Part shown: one piece after another, positions 4,913-15,750 of the stretch
Layout: the number at the start of each line of letters is the position of its first letter
Position numbering within the stretch: the stretch's first letter is position 1
NCBI GenBank assembly: GCA_029213195.1
Contig: JARGNI010000002.1
Coordinates: 62,001-126,000, forward strand
Length of the DNA stretch: 64,000 nucleotides
Direction of reading: 5' to 3'
From: Verrucomicrobiales bacterium
Lineage (GTDB): Bacteria > Verrucomicrobiota > Verrucomicrobiia > Verrucomicrobiales > DEV007
The notes under the pieces: generated by a model
What the model was told of the DNA's origin: nothing
The model's database searches: none
Seen by the model: only the letters and a program-made list of their open reading frames with translations
Made by a program: the position numbers and the translations under genes

Positions 4913-6157
4913 ATGCAAACCATCCCTGCTTTTCGCCTCGCCCTCGTTCTTCTCGCCACCTTTTTCTCGCCACTTCTATCCGCAGAGGACTGGCCCTGGT
5001 GGCGCGGTCCCGACCGCAACGGAGTCGCCACAGGCGAGAAAGGCCCTCCCATCCAACTGGACGCCAAGAAGAACCTACTCTGGTCCGTCGATCTGCCGGG
5101 GCGATCGCATGGTTCCCCCATCATCGTTGCCGATTCCGTGGTCCTTGCGGTGGCAGACGAGGAGAAAAAGCTTCAGTCTCTCCACGCTTTCGACCGGGAA
5201 ACCGGTAAGCCGAAGTGGGCCGAAATCATCCACGAAAACGGCATGCAACAGAAGTCGAACAAGAAGGCTTCCTGGGCTTCTTCGACTCCAGCGAGTCACG
5301 ACGGACGAGTCTTCATCAACTTCGTAAGCGGTGATGCGGCCTGGACCACGGCTCTCGATCTCGAGACCGGCAAGCAACTTTGGCAGAAGAAGATTTGCGA
5401 CTACCAGATTCACCAAGGCTACGGCTCCTCTCCTGCCATCTTCGAGGAGCTCGTCATCGTCTCCGCAGACAACAAGAAGGGCGGCGCCGTCATTGCCTTT
5501 GACCAGGAATCAGGATCGGAAGTCTGGCGAGTCGACCGGGCCAAGATGCCGAACTATCCGTCCCCTATTCTCCTGGAGGCGGCCGGAAAGCTCCAACTCT
5601 TCCTGACAGGCACCGAACGGGTCACGAGCCTCGATCCGCGGACCGGAGAGATTCTCTGGGAAATCGAGGGAGCCACGACCGAGTGCGTGACCTCCACCGT
5701 CACCGACGGAAAGCACATCTACTCGAGCGGAGGTTACCCACGAAACCACGTCGCCGCCATTGCCGCCGATGGCTCGGGAAAGATCGCCTGGGAAACCAAG
5801 GATCGCGTCTATGTGCCCTCCATGTTGATCAAGGGCGACTATCTCTACGCGGTGATGGACAGCGGGGTTGGAATCTGCTGGAACGCGGCAACCGGAGAAG
5901 AGATGTGGAAAGCACGCATCGGCGGCACCTTCAGCGCCTCCCCCATCCTCATCGAAGATCGAATCTACGCCGCCAATGAAGCGGGAGAATTGACCGTTTT
6001 CCGAGCCAGTCCGAATGGCCTCGACGTCCTTGGGAAAAGCAAGGTCGGAGACGAGGTTTTCGCGAGCCCCACGATCTGCGATGGCCGAATTTATTTCCGA
6101 GCCGCCTTCTACCAGGGCAACCAACGAACCGAAAAGCTTCTCGTCTATGGCGAATAA
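4913..6157 (+). CDS. Secreted PQQ-like beta-propeller repeat protein
   Basis: A 414-residue exported protein with an N-terminal signal peptide (about 1-24, ending LLSA-EDW). The mature part opens with 'WPWWRGPDRNGVAT' and then has repeating propeller blades of the PQQ/quinoprotein type, each with 'D..TG...W' strand endings such as 'FDRETGKPKW', 'LDLETGKQLW', 'LDPRTGEILW' and 'WNAATGEEMW'. This architecture resembles BamB-like or quinoprotein propellers, but no dehydrogenase active-site features are evident, so a scaffold or carbohydrate-related role is only a guess. Its end overlaps the start of the downstream protease by 11 nt, which suggests translational coupling. A paralogue starts at 14179. 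Confidence 0.9.
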   Translation: MQTIPAFRLALVLLATFFSPLLSAEDWPWWRGPDRNGVATGEKGPPIQLDAKKNLLWSVDLPGRSHGSPIIVADSVVLAVADEEKKLQSLHAFDRETGKPKWAEIIHENGMQQKSNKKASWASSTPASHDGRVFINFVSGDAAWTTALDLETGKQLWQKKICDYQIHQGYGSSPAIFEELVIVSADNKKGGAVIAFDQESGSEVWRVDRAKMPNYPSPILLEAAGKLQLFLTGTERVTSLDPRTGEILWEIEGATTECVTSTVTDGKHIYSSGGYPRNHVAAIAADGSGKIAWETKDRVYVPSMLIKGDYLYAVMDSGVGICWNAATGEEMWKARIGGTFSASPILIEDRIYAANEAGELTVFRASPNGLDVLGKSKVGDEVFASPTICDGRIYFRAAFYQGNQRTEKLLVYGE

Positions 6158-7982
6158 CACCCCCACCCTCTTCCTCACCGCTCTGCTCAGCCTCCTCATT
6201 TTATCCGCAGGATCGGTATTCGCGAATCACCCGACCGACGCGACTCCGGAGGAAGTCGCGCGCGCGGCCAAGATTCTTGCCGACTGGCACGGCGACGACC
6301 GTGGGGGCGAGAAACGCGCCCTCCATCTCGTCTACTGGACTCCCAACGACAAGGAACCCGTCCCGGAGTATCGGGAACGGCTCTCGGGGATCATGCTCGA
6401 TATCGAGGAATTCTACGGGAAAGAAATGAAACGCCTCGGGCTCGGTCGTCGCAGCATCCGCCTCGAGAAGGATGAGGACCAGCTCCTCAGGATCCATCTC
6501 GTCACAGGGGAAGGTCCTACCTCCGAGTATGCAGTGCAGAGCGGGAACCAGATCAAGCAGGAGTGCATTCCGTATCTCAAGGAAAAGGGGATCGACCCGA
6601 ATCGGGAGACCATCATGATCTTCTGCAATCTTGCGACCTGGGATGAGGAGAAGAAAGTCTTTCGACACAAGAGCCCCTACTATGCGTCGGGTGGACCGCA
6701 GGGAGGCACGGCCTGGCAGCTCGATTCCCCCACCCTCGCGATCGATCGCATTCCCCTGAAGGAACCGATCATTCAGGACGGGCAGTATGGTCGAATCTCT
6801 CTCGGCAAGCACAACAGCATCTTCATTGGGGGCATTGCCCATGAGCTCGGCCATGGACTGGGGCTGCCGCACTGTCGGGAGACAAAATCTCAGAAAGAGC
6901 AATTTGGCACCGCCCTGATGGGTTCGGGAAATCGAAGCTACGGAGACGAACTTCGTGGAGAAGGAAAAGGAAGTTTCCTAACCCTTGCTCATGGATTGCG
7001 TCTCGCTTCGCATCCTCAGTTCAGCGGATCGACCAAGGGGCTCCGACTTCCCGTCTCCTCCGAGATCCGCGACCTCGACCTCTCCGTCGAAGGGAAACAG
7101 ATTCTCGCCAAGGGGACCGTGGAGTCCTCGATCCCCTGCTACGCGATCGTCGCCTACTACGACCCTGATGGCGGCAGCGATTACGATGCCTACACCGCGA
7201 CCTCTGTCCCCAATGAAAATGGAAAGTTCCAGATCTATTCTCCGGAGCTACCACCCGGAACCAAGGGAGAACTCCGGCTTTTTCCTCTTCTCGTGAACGG
7301 ATCCATCGCCAACGGTGGAATGTCGCGAACTCCCTACCGTTTCCGTTATGAGGTTCAGAAAGGCGGAACACCCGATCTCTCCAGCTATTTGACTCGCGCC
7401 AAGCTGACCCCCCTGCTCGATGCCCTGAGAAGCAACGACGGCCAAGGAGTGAAGAAGGCAGCCCAGGAGCTTGCCGAATCCGAAGAGGGTGTCGTCCAGG
7501 AGATCGGCGCTCGTTTTCTGCAGGAGAACACGGCTCCGAAAAAGAAAGCCTCTGATCCCAGCAAGAAGACCCAGGAGGCATCTCTCACCGATTTCGCTCC
7601 CGCCTCCGCAGCGGTGGGCTGGGGCCAGCCGCTCCTCGATCGAGCGCTTCGCCCTGCATTCCTGCTTACCTCTGGAGGAGAAGTTTTCTCCCGGGGAGTC
7701 TACGCCCATGCTCCCTCGACCTACCAGTGGGAGCTGGGAGGAAAATGGAAACGACTGCAAGGACACGCCGGGATGGCCGAGGGCCGATCGGGATCGGTCG
7801 TTTTCTCCATCCACGGCGATGGAAAACAGCTCTGGAAAAGCAAAACGATCAAGGGAGGAGCCCCAGTCGCTTTCGATGTCAATTTGACCGGAGTCCAAAG
7901 GCTCAAGCTCCAGGTCGACGACGCTGGAGACGGCAATGGCTCCGACTGGGGGCTGTGGCTCGGACCGACTCTATCTCGATAG
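6147..7982 (+). CDS. Secreted metzincin-like metalloprotease with NPCBM domain
   Basis: A 611-residue exported protein. The start at 6147 was chosen because a clean signal peptide follows (MANNTPTLFL... SVFA-NHP). The extended zinc-binding motif HELGHGLGLPH (232-242) fits HExxHxxGxxH, and 'GTALMGSGN' (254-262) could supply the Met-turn, so it is a likely metzincin peptidase. A middle region (about 290-420) looks like a beta-sandwich. The C-terminus (about 510-611) matches NPCBM, a carbohydrate-binding module, with 'SRGVYAHAPSTYQWEL' and 'DDAGDGNGSDWG'. Together these suggest cleavage of a glycosylated or polysaccharide-associated protein target. It is coupled to the upstream propeller gene by an 11-nt overlap and followed by a terminator-like hairpin. 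Confidence 0.85.
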   Translation: MANNTPTLFLTALLSLLILSAGSVFANHPTDATPEEVARAAKILADWHGDDRGGEKRALHLVYWTPNDKEPVPEYRERLSGIMLDIEEFYGKEMKRLGLGRRSIRLEKDEDQLLRIHLVTGEGPTSEYAVQSGNQIKQECIPYLKEKGIDPNRETIMIFCNLATWDEEKKVFRHKSPYYASGGPQGGTAWQLDSPTLAIDRIPLKEPIIQDGQYGRISLGKHNSIFIGGIAHELGHGLGLPHCRETKSQKEQFGTALMGSGNRSYGDELRGEGKGSFLTLAHGLRLASHPQFSGSTKGLRLPVSSEIRDLDLSVEGKQILAKGTVESSIPCYAIVAYYDPDGGSDYDAYTATSVPNENGKFQIYSPELPPGTKGELRLFPLLVNGSIANGGMSRTPYRFRYEVQKGGTPDLSSYLTRAKLTPLLDALRSNDGQGVKKAAQELAESEEGVVQEIGARFLQENTAPKKKASDPSKKTQEASLTDFAPASAAVGWGQPLLDRALRPAFLLTSGGEVFSRGVYAHAPSTYQWELGGKWKRLQGHAGMAEGRSGSVVFSIHGDGKQLWKSKTIKGGAPVAFDVNLTGVQRLKLQVDDAGDGNGSDWGLWLGPTLSR

Positions 7983-7992
7983 GAGCCCCACG

Positions 7993-8018
7993 ACACCCGG
8001 AACCGGGTCTTCTTTTTC
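7993..8018 (+). terminator. Intrinsic terminator after the propeller-protease pair
   Basis: An ACCCGG / CCGGGT inverted repeat with a very short loop is followed by TCTTCTTTTT. It lies 11 bases after the protease stop and fits Rho-independent termination of the plus-strand pair, though the loop is tight. Confidence 0.6.
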
Positions 8019-8067
8019 GAAAAATGCGCAAGCATCGGGGCGAAGCCGCTATCTTTGGATAGCGCTT

Positions 8068-8462
8068 ATGGCGGAAGAATCACGACATGATGAGTTCATA
8101 CAGCTGCTCCTCGAACTTCAGCCGCAGAGCTATGCTACATCCGAAGCCTCCTCTTTCAGCGGACAGATGCCCTTCTTGAGAAGTTCCCACCCATTCTTGA
8201 GGAGGAAGGGATGGAGGACGCGATTGCCGATTCGAAACTTGTTCGCCTACCACTTCGCTCGGCAGCGGCCTGGTTTGCCGCGGCCGCGATCATCACCATT
8301 CTGGCGCCTCTTGGTCTGCAAACACCGAACAAGTCAGCAAATCCTTACTCGCTCGCGGGATGGAATTCTTCTGCCAAGCCCGACGTCGCAACGTTGATTT
8401 TTGCCGAGGAATGCCATTGGCGCGGCAAGCTCCTTGGCTGGAGTGCGCCCCACGAGTTGGAT
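8068..8462 (+). pseudogene. Decayed ECF sigma factor / FecR-like remnant
   Basis: The ATG at 8068 begins 'MAEESRHDEFIQLLLELQPQ', which looks like the N-terminus of the Verrucomicrobia/Planctomycetes-type ECF sigma factors. The frame breaks near 8135; skipping to the next frame restores 'YA' plus 'YIRSLLF', as expected for that family, so about one base has been lost. The second frame continues without sigma domains 2 and 4. It reads into what looks like an FecR-type regulator: a membrane helix ('SAAAWFAAAAIITILAPLG', about 8250-8310) followed by 'VATLIFAEECHWRGK' (8389-8433), similar to the V-A-x-L-x-x-A-x-x-C-x-W-x-G start of FecR domains. Similarity ends where the opposite-strand ABC gene stops. 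A sigma and an FecR-like gene appear fused by deletion and truncated. Assignment is from memory of the families. Confidence 0.55.
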
Positions 8463-10295
8463 CTATCGACCCGCGTCAACCAACACCCCGGCGGGACCAG
8501 AAGTTGGGCGGTGTCCTCCTTCCGCTTCTTCCACCTCCCAGCGGTGATAAGCGTCGACATAAGCGGGACAGGTCTCAATGAGAGTTTCATGGGAACCTTC
8601 GCCCACCAGCTTGCCCTCATCCAAAAAGAGAATCCGAGGCGCCTGTCGCAGCAGATCGATGCGGTGGGTGACGAGCACCGTGGTTCCTCCACCTTCCTCC
8701 TTTCGACGGAGAATACTGTCATGAATCAGCGACTCGCTCTCGGGTTCGACCGAAGCAGTTGGCTCGTCGAGGAGCAGGATCCGTGGAGTTGTCAGGAATG
8801 CTCGCGCGAGGCTGAGCCGTTGCCGCTGCCCGCCAGACAGTTTCACTCCATTCTGCCCCACCTCGGTCTCGTATCCCTTGGGCAAGTCGAGAATGAAGTC
8901 ATGTGCGTTCGCGGCACGAGCCGCCTTCTCGACGTCGGCGAGGGTGGCGGCAGGGAATCCATAACGCAGGTTCTCCTCTACGGTCCCGTTGAAGAGGTAG
9001 TTCTCCTGTCCGACGTAGCCAATCCTGCTGCGGAGCGAATCCGGGACGAAAGCCCTGACATCGACCTCATCGATTTCGACAGCACCTTCGTCCACATCGT
9101 AAAATCGGGGAATCAGGTTCAGGAGTGTGCTCTTTCCCGAGCCACTGCCACCGGCGATGGCCACAAACTCTCCGGACGCAACGGAAACCTCGAGGCCTCT
9201 CAGGATGGGTTTTCCCGGGACATACGAAAAATGCACATCGCGGAACTGAATCGCTCCCTTTGGATTCTCCCACGGCTGCGCATCCGGGCCCGAGGTGATT
9301 GTCACCGGTTCATCGAGAATCTCGAGCACCCGGGTCGCTGCGGCACGAGCGCGCTGAAGGATGTCGCTGGTCTGGGCAATCGTGCGGATCGGGCTCTGCA
9401 AACGCCACCAGAAGCCTCGATAAGCGATCAGCGCTCCCAGGGTGAACCACTGGCTTCCTTCCATGATGAGCCACGCCCCCACCCCGAGCATGATGAGGTT
9501 GTTGAGAAAACCGAAAGTCGAAACGATCGGGAAATAGGTGTTTCGAAGCCGGCTCGCCTTGACGCTGGACTCGTAGAAGGTATCGACCCGTTCGGCGAAG
9601 TCCTCCTTCTCCTCTTCTTCGCGGGCAAATGACTGGGTCACCTGGATCCCGGCGAGACGATCCTGGAGAAAGGACCCGATCGTCCCCAGTTTTCTCCGAA
9701 CTCCCTCGTAGATCGATTTGACCCGGCGATTGTATTTCCGAATAAAGATAAAGGCGAAAGCGAGCGGCAGGATGGAGGCCGCTCCCACGACGGGACTGAG
9801 CCAGAGAACCATTCCTGCCACGACCACAAAGGTAACAACCTCCTCCAGCAGGCTCGTCAATCCCTGGAGAACGGATTGCTCCATCGCATCGACATCGCTG
9901 GTCATGCGGGTGACCAGTTCTCCCGTGCTGCGATCACGATGATAGGCGAGAGACTGGTCCTGGAACTTCGCGAACAGCTCATTCCGGATATCGCGGACAA
10001 AGGCCTGTCCTGTGCGCTCGAGGAGATAGGTTTGCCATGCGCCCGCCGCCAAACCGATCAGATAGGTCGCAAACATCAACACCAGCCAGAAGGCCAGAAT
10101 ACCGGGGGTCAAGGTCTTCTCGACGAGGTGATCGGCCACGAATCCCCAGACCAGGGGATGAAAATTCACGAACGGAACGGCGAGAACGAGGAGCGTCAGT
10201 GAAAAAATCAGCGGCCGACGATGGGGACGAAGACGATCCCAGATCCGGGATCGTAGTTCCTTGTCCGAAATGTCATAGACCTCTGCCATTCCCAT
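8463..10295 (-). CDS. ABC exporter, fused membrane and ATPase domains
   Basis: A 610-residue half-transporter of the MsbA/MdlB type. Residues about 28-320 hold six membrane helices of an ABC type-1 exporter fold, and 345-590 the nucleotide-binding domain. The latter shows Walker A GGSGSGKST, Q-loop 'GYVGQENYLF', signature LSGGQRQRLSLARAF, Walker B ILLLDEPTAS and H-loop 'VTHRID'. It probably works as a homodimer or with a partner elsewhere; the substrate (lipid, peptide or drug) cannot be told from sequence. A second possible ATG lies two codons in. It follows the YdeP-like gene by 8 nt on the same strand, so the two are probably co-transcribed. Confidence 0.93.
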   Translation of the reverse strand: MGMAEVYDISDKELRSRIWDRLRPHRRPLIFSLTLLVLAVPFVNFHPLVWGFVADHLVEKTLTPGILAFWLVLMFATYLIGLAAGAWQTYLLERTGQAFVRDIRNELFAKFQDQSLAYHRDRSTGELVTRMTSDVDAMEQSVLQGLTSLLEEVVTFVVVAGMVLWLSPVVGAASILPLAFAFIFIRKYNRRVKSIYEGVRRKLGTIGSFLQDRLAGIQVTQSFAREEEEKEDFAERVDTFYESSVKASRLRNTYFPIVSTFGFLNNLIMLGVGAWLIMEGSQWFTLGALIAYRGFWWRLQSPIRTIAQTSDILQRARAAATRVLEILDEPVTITSGPDAQPWENPKGAIQFRDVHFSYVPGKPILRGLEVSVASGEFVAIAGGSGSGKSTLLNLIPRFYDVDEGAVEIDEVDVRAFVPDSLRSRIGYVGQENYLFNGTVEENLRYGFPAATLADVEKAARAANAHDFILDLPKGYETEVGQNGVKLSGGQRQRLSLARAFLTTPRILLLDEPTASVEPESESLIHDSILRRKEEGGGTTVLVTHRIDLLRQAPRILFLDEGKLVGEGSHETLIETCPAYVDAYHRWEVEEAEGGHRPTSGPAGVLVDAGR

Positions 10296-12752: not shown

Positions 12753-14069
12753 CTAGGCATTCTTCCGAGAGAGGAATTTCTCGAAAACTTCGCCGGTCGC
12801 TCCCGCCATTGCCGAGCGGTCCGCGGACTGCTCGACCCATCGACGTCCCGACTCGCCCCGCACTCGAGCCGCCTCGGGATCCGACAATAGATTTCCCAGT
12901 TCCTCGGCGAGAGATTCTGCACTTTCAGGTTCGAAGAGCAAACCTCCACCCGAGGCCTCCATCAACTCCGGGAAAATTCCTTTCCTTGGTTGAACCGCCG
13001 GCAACCCACAAGCAAACGCCTCGAGCAGATAGAGCCCTTTTGGTTCAGTGAACCGGGTCGGGACACTGAACACATCGAGCTGTTCGAGAAACGCTTTCTT
13101 CGCCTCTCCATCTGGCGCCTCGACATGGATAAATCGATCGGAAAGCCCGGAAGACTCGATCTTCTGCAATTGCTCCTCGTAGAAATCCTTATCCTTGTCC
13201 GAAAGCCACCCCGCCACCCGAAGCGTCGCCTCCGGAAATCGTGGGGCAAGCCGGAGGAAAGCATCGATGATGAGATCGAATCCTTTCTCGGGAGCTAGCC
13301 TCGCAAAATAGCCAATGACCTGACCGGACTCCCGGTTCTTCCGTGACTCATAAACGGAATCGAACTCCTCCACCGTCGCCCCCAGGGGAGTGATGGAGAA
13401 TTTCTCGGCGGGAACCTCGAAAAGCTCCACCATCCGATCCCGGTAATAGTCCGAGAAGGTAATGAATCCATCGGCAGCCGAGGCCAGCGTTTTCATTTCG
13501 GAGAGCACCTGCTCTCGCCAGGGTTCCTGCAATTCATCAAGAAAGACATCGTCTCCTTGCAGCGTGACGAGAACCGGCACACCCAGTTCCCTTTGCAGAG
13601 CCGGAATACAGCCGCCCACAAGCAGATTCGTAAGGCAGATCAGGTCCGGTTTCACCAGCTCCTTGAGCCAGTGCACGAGGCGCTTCACTTCTTTCTTCTG
13701 GAAGCCATGTTCTCCCTTCACCATGGAAAGTGTCATGTCGCCCAACTCAGCGGCACTGACAGACATCGCGCCCGAGGCGACCCGACGAATCAGGGCAGGA
13801 TTGTCGAGCCAGCGATCGAGAAAAGCCGGGAGATGGCGAAAGAGAGAAATCTTCTGCTGAAGGTAGACGTTGATCCCTCCAAAAAACACCTGATCGACCG
13901 AGTGATCCTCTTCATCCACCCGAATCGGCGTGTAAAGAGGAAGCAGGAGAATGTCCCAACCAAGCTCCTCTAAACCCGTGACGAGGGTATTGTCCCGGAT
14001 ACAGCTGCCGCAATACATCCCTCCAGCACCTGCCGTGATGTAGACCACCTTGGGACGTTTCTCTTCCAT
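12753..14069 (-). CDS. Glycosyltransferase family 4 (GT-B)
   Basis: A 438-residue cytoplasmic GT-B glycosyltransferase. The N-terminal half starts 'VVYITAGAGGMYCGSCIRDN', the loop that contacts the acceptor in this subgroup, and the C-terminal half has 'GYFARLAPEKGFDLIIDAF' and the donor-site region 'FTEPKGLYLLEAFACGLP' with E-x7-E spacing typical of GT4. No sugar transfer partner can be inferred. It precedes the YdeP-like gene by 133 bp on the same strand but may have its own promoter, shared divergently with the propeller gene at 14179. Confidence 0.9.
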   Translation of the reverse strand: MEEKRPKVVYITAGAGGMYCGSCIRDNTLVTGLEELGWDILLLPLYTPIRVDEEDHSVDQVFFGGINVYLQQKISLFRHLPAFLDRWLDNPALIRRVASGAMSVSAAELGDMTLSMVKGEHGFQKKEVKRLVHWLKELVKPDLICLTNLLVGGCIPALQRELGVPVLVTLQGDDVFLDELQEPWREQVLSEMKTLASAADGFITFSDYYRDRMVELFEVPAEKFSITPLGATVEEFDSVYESRKNRESGQVIGYFARLAPEKGFDLIIDAFLRLAPRFPEATLRVAGWLSDKDKDFYEEQLQKIESSGLSDRFIHVEAPDGEAKKAFLEQLDVFSVPTRFTEPKGLYLLEAFACGLPAVQPRKGIFPELMEASGGGLLFEPESAESLAEELGNLLSDPEAARVRGESGRRWVEQSADRSAMAGATGEVFEKFLSRKNA

Positions 14070-14178
14070 TGCGATCCAACAAACTCCGGATCGTTACGCT
14101 CCGCCAGTCACGGAAAGACATCATAACGCCAGTGCGAACCGACCGGGGAAGGATACCTTACCCCTGATTTCGACCGCC

Positions 14179-15750
14179 ATGAGACCTTTGTTTCCTTCCC
14201 TTCTCCTCATTACCTCAATGATCGGTTCCCATGCTCTTGCCGACTGGCCGCAATGGCGTGGCCCAGACCGCAATGGAGTCGCCCCGGAATCAGCGAAGCT
14301 TCCCGATCTTTTCCCCGAGGACTATGCCCCGTTGGAAGTCTGGCGTTCCATCGAAATCCCAAGCGATCACTATGGCGGTCACGGGAGCGTTTCGGTCGCC
14401 GCCGGGAAGGTCTATCTCTCCATCGTCTGGCATCGGGACGAACCGACCGAAACTCGGAGAATCGATTCCTCGGTGCTTTCCACGCTCGGCTATCGCGGAA
14501 CTCAAGCTCTCGCGCCAGAGATTCGGGAGAAGATGGAAACCGATCGCATGAATCTGAGTCGTCGACTTCGGGGCGCAGCTCTGGACGAATGGTCGAAAAA
14601 ATGGGTCGAGGAGAATATCGATGAAAAGACCCAGCTTTCCCTCGGCAGTTGGATCCAGAGTCGATTCAAGAAGGGCCAAGCCGCGATTCCCCTCTCGGTC
14701 TACGACACCCTTCGCACCGTCTCAAACAAGACCTTCGCCAACCAGGCGGAAGTGGAAGCCTGGGTCACCGAGCAGAATTTTGCCCCCGAAATCCATGACC
14801 AGATCATCAAGGCGATCCCTTCGACCAAGAAAGTCGCCGACGATGTCATCCTCTGCCTCGACGCCAAGACGGGAGAAGAAGTCTGGCGTTTTTCAACGCC
14901 CGGCAGCCCCAGCGGCCGCGGTTCCTCCAGCACGCCTGCCATTGCCCATGGCAAGGTATTCGCTGCGCTGAGTGACCATCTCTACGGCGTCGATGCGGAA
15001 ACCGGGGAAGAAATCTGGCGCAGCCCCCTTGAGGGGAAAAAAGGCCCCGCCTCCTCTCCTCTCGTTGTCGGCGAGCGGATCTTTCTCCATCAGAACCGGC
15101 TCACCGCTTTCGACGTGGCGACAGGCAAAGAGCTCTGGGTCAACCAGGAAGTAAAGGGGGCCAATTCCTCCCCAGCCGCCTGGAACAACCTCATTCTCTC
15201 CAATTCCCAGAAAGGGCTCTATGCCACCGACATCGAGAGTGGGGCCACTCTCTGGAGCGTATCCGGTGGAGGGGATGGAACTCCGGTCGTGTCCGGAGAT
15301 CATGTCATCGTCAGCAGCAAGACCGAAGGAGAAAATCTCATCGCCTACCGGCTCAAGGAGAACACCGGCCCGGAAAAGCTCTGGTCCCACTCATTCCTGG
15401 CCCGACGCTATGGCTCGAGCCCGATTGTGGACGACGGCAAGGTCTTTCATCTCGGAAGCAATCGACATCTCTGTCTCTCTCTTGAGAACGGGAAGATCCT
15501 CTGGGATCGCGAAGCAAGTTCCGCCATTTCCTCTCCCATCCTCGCGGATGGAAAACTACTCGTCTACGAGAACCGAGGCGGCTTCGCCCACATGCTCAGC
15601 ACTTCGGGCGAAGAATACCAGTCCCTCGGCCGGGCCAAGATCGGGGCCCTCTACTGCGCCTCCCCTGCCATCGTCGGGAATGAGGTTTTTCTCCGCACCA
15701 AGGACTCCGTCGTCTGCTACCGGTTTGAAGAACCGAATGAGGTGGAGTAG
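14179..15750 (+). CDS. Secreted PQQ-like beta-propeller repeat protein (second copy)
   Basis: A 523-residue exported propeller. The start was placed at MRPLFPSLLLITS because a signal peptide (cleavage after 'SHALA') and the motif 'DWPQWRGPDRNGVAPES' follow at once; the frame upstream of 14179 has no such support. Blades carry 'LDAKTGEEVW', 'VDAETGEEIW', 'FDVATGKELW' and 'TDIESGATLW'. Compared with the copy at 4913 it has an extra helical, charged segment (about residues 95-220) inserted before the regular blades, giving about 110 more residues. Function is unknown; a secreted scaffold or sensor in polysaccharide use is possible. No protease gene accompanies this copy. Confidence 0.9.
   Translation: MRPLFPSLLLITSMIGSHALADWPQWRGPDRNGVAPESAKLPDLFPEDYAPLEVWRSIEIPSDHYGGHGSVSVAAGKVYLSIVWHRDEPTETRRIDSSVLSTLGYRGTQALAPEIREKMETDRMNLSRRLRGAALDEWSKKWVEENIDEKTQLSLGSWIQSRFKKGQAAIPLSVYDTLRTVSNKTFANQAEVEAWVTEQNFAPEIHDQIIKAIPSTKKVADDVILCLDAKTGEEVWRFSTPGSPSGRGSSSTPAIAHGKVFAALSDHLYGVDAETGEEIWRSPLEGKKGPASSPLVVGERIFLHQNRLTAFDVATGKELWVNQEVKGANSSPAAWNNLILSNSQKGLYATDIESGATLWSVSGGGDGTPVVSGDHVIVSSKTEGENLIAYRLKENTGPEKLWSHSFLARRYGSSPIVDDGKVFHLGSNRHLCLSLENGKILWDREASSAISSPILADGKLLVYENRGGFAHMLSTSGEEYQSLGRAKIGALYCASPAIVGNEVFLRTKDSVVCYRFEEPNEVE

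Follow-up and report, generated by a model that had tools for sequence, protein, structure and literature searches.

The window, the whole 64,000-nucleotide stretch of Verrucomicrobiales DNA that we analyzed, carries two neighboring forward-strand genes ahead of the region of interest. The first encodes a BamB/PQQ-like beta-propeller protein (4913..6157; Pfam PF13360, E = 2.8e-40) and is 72% identical to the propeller that precedes a protease gene in the same-genus genome G043. The second encodes a metalloprotease-like protein with an HELGHGLGLPH motif and an NPCBM domain (6147..7982; PF08305, E = 3.2e-32), which is probably secreted, judging from its hydrophobic start. It is 58% identical to the G043 protease and matches PF12044 with an E-value of 9.7e-6, under the cut-off of that family. 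An ABC exporter gene on the reverse strand (8463..10295; PF00664 and PF00005) converges on these genes, and the protease stop (7982) is separated from the ABC gene end (8463) by 480 bases. Its product is 77% identical to the ortholog in genome G005 and 80% identical to that in G044. Elsewhere in the window, at 14050-15750, we recognized by eye a further beta-propeller-like gene.

Between the protease and ABC genes, the sequence resembles the start of an ECF sigma factor. The forward frame 8068..8136 (23 codons) translates as MAEESRHDEFIQLLLELQPQSYA and aligns to residues 5-27 of an intact sigma factor in G005, with 16 of 23 residues identical (BLASTP E = 1e-10). The next segment of that protein is matched in a different frame, where YIRSLLFQRTDA (8136..8171, forward) is identical to G005 residues 28-39 at 9 of 12 positions. 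Because the similarity continues from the 8068 frame into the 8136 frame, a frame break is placed at about 8133..8138 on the forward strand. The break near 8135 was read from assembled sequence and may be a sequencing or assembly error. Together the two segments make up about 35 codons and represent residues ~5-39 of the 182 in the G005 protein; complete sigma regions 2 and 4 are absent.

The frame from 8136 reads YIRSLLFQRTDALLEKFPPILEEEG...AAAWFAAAAIITILAPLGLQ...VATLIFAEECHW. With no break after the sigma continuation, it enters ALLEKFPPI and runs through a membrane helix to VATLIFAEECHW, all aligned to the FecR-type regulator of G005. This FecR-like piece (8166..8423, forward, about 85 codons) matches residues 56-144 of the regulator at 42 of 94 positions (E = 5e-18), with its start corresponding to about residue 61 and its end to about residue 144. 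The retained helix (8259..8318, forward) is a hydrophobic stretch identified by eye and is aligned with the G005 helix. FecR similarity stops at about 8423, and the ABC gene ends at 8463. Identity to G005 is 49% over 80 codons, lower than the 70-75% of the sigma pieces, so the exact end of the FecR similarity is uncertain. The N-terminal part of the regulator and the FecR domain are missing from the window (the Pfam FecR stretch corresponds to residues 192-245 of the G005 regulator), and the remainder of the regulator, about 413 codons, is gone up to the ABC gene.

The two pieces meet at 8166..8171 (forward), at Asp-Ala codons common to the sigma factor and the regulator. The corresponding places in G005 are a GATGC that ends at position 5863 of locus L014, in the sigma gene, and a GACGC that starts at position 6437, in the FecR gene; both encode Asp-Ala. 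In G005 coordinates, the lost piece would span about 0.58 kb, which fits a deletion between short direct repeats. A preliminary description of this DNA had proposed an ECF sigma start at 8068, a frame break near 8135 with continuation in the next frame, and a fusion by deletion to a FecR-like regulator with a membrane helix. The alignments to G005 bear out all three.

Profile searches returned nothing for these fragments. Neither relic fragment had a Pfam or NCBIfam match at E ≤ 10, and an NCBIfam search of 8068-8142 and 8136-8564 at the same threshold returned 0 families. The preliminary description had named a lack of ECF sigma and FecR profile hits in either frame as a refutation of its reading, and this is literally what the searches gave. 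We explain the misses by the small size of the two fragments, 35 and about 85 residues. Since the fragment searches were empty, we examined the orthologous places in relatives instead. The ABC gene served as the landmark: orthologs of at least 63% identity occur in at least 20 of the 33 same-genus genomes, the window's own genome included, with that of G018 in two pieces. ABC flanks were taken from 19 relatives. The G043 contig stops at the gene, leaving 18 readable flanks of ~0.6 kb (G013) to more than 8 kb.

Beside the orthologous ABC gene of G005 lies an intact pair, a sigma gene (182 amino acids as read) followed by a gene for a 557-amino-acid regulator. The pair is convergent with the ABC gene and lies 49 bases from the ABC stop. 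The sigma factor (P0001) belongs to the TIGR02989 family (E = 1.2e-43, 148.7 bits against a curated cut-off of 124.55), and the regulator (P0002) scores marginally above the cut-off for the FecR domain PF04773 (E = 8.3e-6, 26.6 bits against 24). The order in G005 is therefore ECF sigma gene, then FecR-domain regulator gene, and the pieces in the window are collinear with this operon, with the intervening part missing. The preliminary description had suggested looking for an intact pair next to the same ABC gene in relatives, and G005 has one; we consider that this ortholog overrides the missing profile matches. Because the sigma piece has no TIGR02989 match of its own, we class it as a relic of that family, not as a member.

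Chance resemblance in an intergenic region would fit the empty profile searches. It is refuted by the agreement of two collinear fragments with one intact operon, at E-values of 1e-10 and 5e-18 and with scores above those of 100 shuffles each. Against 199 fetched loci and 6 alignment rows, the sigma piece scored 38.1 bits (shuffled maximum, 25.8) and the FecR piece 82.0 bits (shuffled maximum, 37.0). In the same set, the best match of both pieces was the G005 pair and the second was the G041 pair. The probability that chance accounts for the resemblance is negligible.

At E ≤ 1e-3, G005 alone of the 18 readable ABC flanks yielded sigma or FecR sequence, in the form of the intact pair. No pair adjoins the ABC gene of G044, although its ABC protein is closer (80%) than that of G005. 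On these flanks we rejected a conserved short gene across the span. They also bear on the idea that the fused frame, or its portion starting with the ATG at 8211, is still expressed as a small membrane protein that has taken on a new function. The frame from 8136 is open beyond 8462 to 9632, antisense within the ABC gene; the membrane helix is retained, and the ATG at 8211 stands behind a GGAGG word, with GAGGAGGAAGGG ahead of it. However, the frame break parts this frame from the sigma start, and beyond 8463 it is antisense to a conserved gene. Since the flanks hold sigma or FecR sequence only as the intact G005 pair, no relative shows a conserved fused frame. We regard a surviving membrane protein as extremely improbable.

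Two marks of a pseudogene are found: an intact ortholog in relatives and disabling changes in the window. Of the differences from G005, 10 of 16 and 8 of 12 in the sigma pieces and 61 of 116 in the FecR piece fall at third codon positions, as do 366 of 547 in the intact ABC gene. The third-position excess is still visible in the relic, so the pair appears to have been lost recently compared with the divergence from G005. Compared with G041, the FecR sequence of the relic is 36% identical and that of G005 45%. The lower value agrees with relaxed selection, although over 74-82 codons it may reflect alignment noise.

We then considered how often the pair occurs. A search of the 33 same-genus genomes with the G005 sigma factor (E ≤ 1e-24) recovered G005 itself, G041 (62% identical) and a partial match in G043 (69%), and the other matches listed were at most 42% identical. 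The best other match listed for the window's own genome, G000, is 38% identical, in the paralog range. The FecR search recovered an almost full-length match in G041 (49%) and the fragment in the window (46%), and the other matches listed were shorter and at most 42% identical. The pair or its relic was thus seen in 4 of the 33 genomes, intact in G005 and G041 and broken in G000 and G043. In a sample of 386 genomes of the order, the FecR search (E ≤ 1e-50) added G185 (43%) and the sigma search (E ≤ 1e-41) added none. The G185 sigma factor is just 35% identical to that of G005; G185 may therefore be a paralog and is counted apart from the orthologs. The window's own genome has 37 TIGR02989 sigma matches at E ≤ 0.001, 12 of them above the family cut-off. 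In G014 (contig C38, 1968-2434), a TIGR02989 match is divided into two pieces that overlap (model positions 2-101 and 95-158) and is perhaps a broken sigma gene.

The broken copy in G043 sits behind the counterparts of the window's propeller (72% identical) and protease (58%) genes. A short start and sigma residues 67-168 remain, an internal stretch is lost, and in-frame stops and frame breaks lie between; FecR was not found in the 9.9 kb read. G043 has sigma sequence that is missing from the window and lacks most of the stretch that is present there, which indicates two separate losses. The intact pair at the orthologous place in G005 and the differently broken copy in G043 agree with the preliminary view of a decayed pair being lost.

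Mis-assembly would offer another account, in which the true genome holds an intact pair and the contig is collapsed or mis-joined at the relic. The genome is indeed a 115-contig assembly. However, each flank of the relic is backed by another genome, with propeller and protease before the sigma sequence in G043 and FecR before the ABC gene in G005. Moreover, for G000 the strongest other listed match to the G005 sigma factor is 38% identical, within the paralog range, and the sigma gene of the pair is broken in a second assembly, that of G043. An artifact of this kind is very unlikely.

From these sequence comparisons, we conclude with a probability of roughly 0.93 that 8068-8423 is a non-functional relic of a TIGR02989 ECF sigma factor and of the FecR-type membrane regulator encoded behind it. 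The ancestral FecR-type protein would have had a cytoplasmic N-terminus, one membrane helix and an outer domain. It presumably restrained or directed the sigma factor until a signal arrived, and the sigma factor presumably drove its own operon from CGCAARC-N14-GCTATY. Sigma residue ~38 would have been joined to FecR residue ~61 by a deletion of about 0.58 kb between two short GAYGC words. A second loss, of about 1.2 kb, would have removed what remained of FecR as far as the ABC gene, and the frame break near 8135 would have cut the remaining sigma start; these events may have come in any order. With the sigma body, the regulator N-terminus and the FecR domain lost, activation or inhibition in the old style does not look possible.

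The relic can be compared with known systems. It shares with the TIGR02989 ECF sigma factors (the Rhodopirellula/Verrucomicrobium family) the first ~35 residues, and its G005 ortholog is a member, but it has just the beginning of region 2, no region 4, a change of frame and no match to the model. The order of sigma then FecR, the single helix (by eye) and the PF04773 domain of the intact ortholog are as in FecR-type membrane regulators of sigma factors, but the relic lacks the N-terminal part and the FecR domain and keeps the helix and its surroundings. A fusion of this general kind occurs in Pseudomonas putida, the host of IutY. IutY is a natural sigma/anti-sigma fusion (PMC9249621) in which, likewise, sigma factor and membrane regulator form one polypeptide with a single membrane helix between its parts. 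A working sigma factor results from IutY, whereas in the relic the sigma body is gone and the frame is broken. In FecR systems, an N-proximal sequence of ~50 residues binds the sigma factor (PMC9249621), and the 59 N-terminal residues of Escherichia coli FecR are reported to be essential for ECF activity (PMC7406223). By analogy, the N-terminus of the lost regulator would have contacted the sigma factor and its outer part would have sensed.

The simplest reading of the gene orders is an ancestral arrangement propeller-protease-sigma-FecR facing the ABC gene, with different losses in each lineage; transfer would also be possible. A propeller ortholog (61-66%) stands before the ABC gene end in G007, G009, G021 and G045, with no protease or pair between. 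A phylogeny of 17 ABC orthologs places G000 together with G005, G044, G010, G013, G020 and G039, and G043 in a group with ten others including G007, G009, G021 and G045; the root is by midpoint only, and G000 and G043 are on long branches. The place at the 3' end of the ABC gene is variable, with restriction-modification-like genes in G044 (L053, 5938-9431) and a PIN-toxin-like gene after the ABC gene in G045 (L054, 7343-7759), all named by eye.

Upstream of the relic lies CGCAAGC-N14-GCTATC (8027..8053, forward), a candidate promoter of the lost sigma gene. The pattern CGCAARC-N14-GCTATY occurs upstream of all four orthologs, with equal spacer length and about 14-16 bases before the ATG. We picked the motif after viewing these four sequences, and its significance is therefore post hoc. 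In 12 genomes it has 8 exact matches, 4 of which are at the pair itself in the 4 pair-bearing genomes; of the 8 genomes without the pair, 1 carries an exact site anywhere. The reversed pattern has 3 sites in the same 12 genomes. The four sites away from the pair, one each in G000, G005, G041 and G021, fall upstream of or within genes with no relation apparent by eye. Given these sites and the 3 reversed matches, we rejected a regulon read from the motif and claim none. The window contains 5 matches with at most 2 mismatches, against a chance expectation of 4.15, and this site is the only exact one. For the sigma matches of the window's own genome, 30 of the 37 upstream regions were examined and their best motif matches have 2 to 5 mismatches. 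No sigma-70-type promoter was found in 7900-8700. The motif is probably the pair's own promoter, still standing in the window, and it could be tested as a promoter recognized by this sigma group. The window's own genome has just one further exact copy (G000:C79:198503-198529), which lies ~90 bases before a gene for what appears by eye to be an exported sugar-isomerase-like protein.

The relic is an ordinary, though unusually clear, instance of gene decay, and its novelty is confined to the documented recurrence of the loss and to the promoter-like element that survives. A single pair can be followed from a complete operon to its remains, and it was broken in different ways in two lineages. With 37 TIGR02989 sites in this genome, how large regulator sets grow and shrink is a fair question. 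Among the full-text literature matches listed, we found by title and abstract no publication on this sigma-FecR group.

The preliminary description also suggested that the pair may once have controlled the propeller and protease genes; in its strongest form, the pair was a dedicated regulator of that operon, which its loss freed from control. The order propeller-protease-sigma, common to G000 and G043, fits this idea. A scan of contigs with a protease alignment gave 80 loci, of which those reaching 41% identity or more (57 loci, L114-L170) were examined and the 23 weakest omitted. Most of the 57 are titled Verrucomicrobiota, Planctomycetota or unassigned metagenome-assembled genomes, and a few name other taxa such as Kuenenia. 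A related sigma factor (E ≤ 1e-4) was found in the flanks of just 2 of the 57, many of which are shortened by contig ends. These are L114, which appears to be the G043 contig, and L134 (Roseibacillus sp. ANT-131). At L134, a distant propeller (25% identical) precedes the protease and a truncated sigma gene follows it (TIGR02989 positions 2-57 of 158, E = 8.6e-9), the frame of which then runs antisense into a convergent gene.

Against control of these genes, the intact orthologs have other neighbors. G005 has no protease match in its genome (86% complete), and in G041 the protease is on another contig. Behind the G041 pair, and behind the looser G185 pair, are genes that we take to be cytochrome-like, named by eye from their motifs, and these argue against a role dedicated to the propeller and protease. 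Nor was the motif found upstream of the propeller and protease genes in G000 and G043, where the best match has 4-5 mismatches, like most random 250-base chunks. We therefore consider a dedicated regulator unlikely, and the suggested former control stays a conjecture, which the G043 neighborhood fits.

A different pattern would be that the pair is repeatedly destroyed behind propeller and protease genes and survives elsewhere. The firm cases are the relics behind the protease in G000 and G043 and the intact orthologs away from it in G005 and G041. The looser cases are the truncated sigma gene behind the protease at L134 and the intact G185 pair, on an 8.3-kb contig with no protease match. Taken together, 3 of 3 are broken behind the protease and 0 of 3 away from it, with the orthology of L134 and G185 putative. 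With so few cases, the one-sided chance of such a pattern, by hand arithmetic, is 1 in 6 for the firm cases and 1 in 20 for all six, and we hold the pattern to be doubtful, with odds well against it. If true, it would point to conflict or redundancy between a secreted protease and a membrane regulator, and to a sigma factor's own promoter outliving its gene. Two further observations concern protease loci of relatives. In G042 (L064, 3603-5410), the protease gene is split over two frames and is perhaps decaying itself. In G041 (L059, 6069-6434), the protease gene is followed, near the contig end, by ~5.6 copies of a 66-base repeat unit in a CRISPR-like layout.
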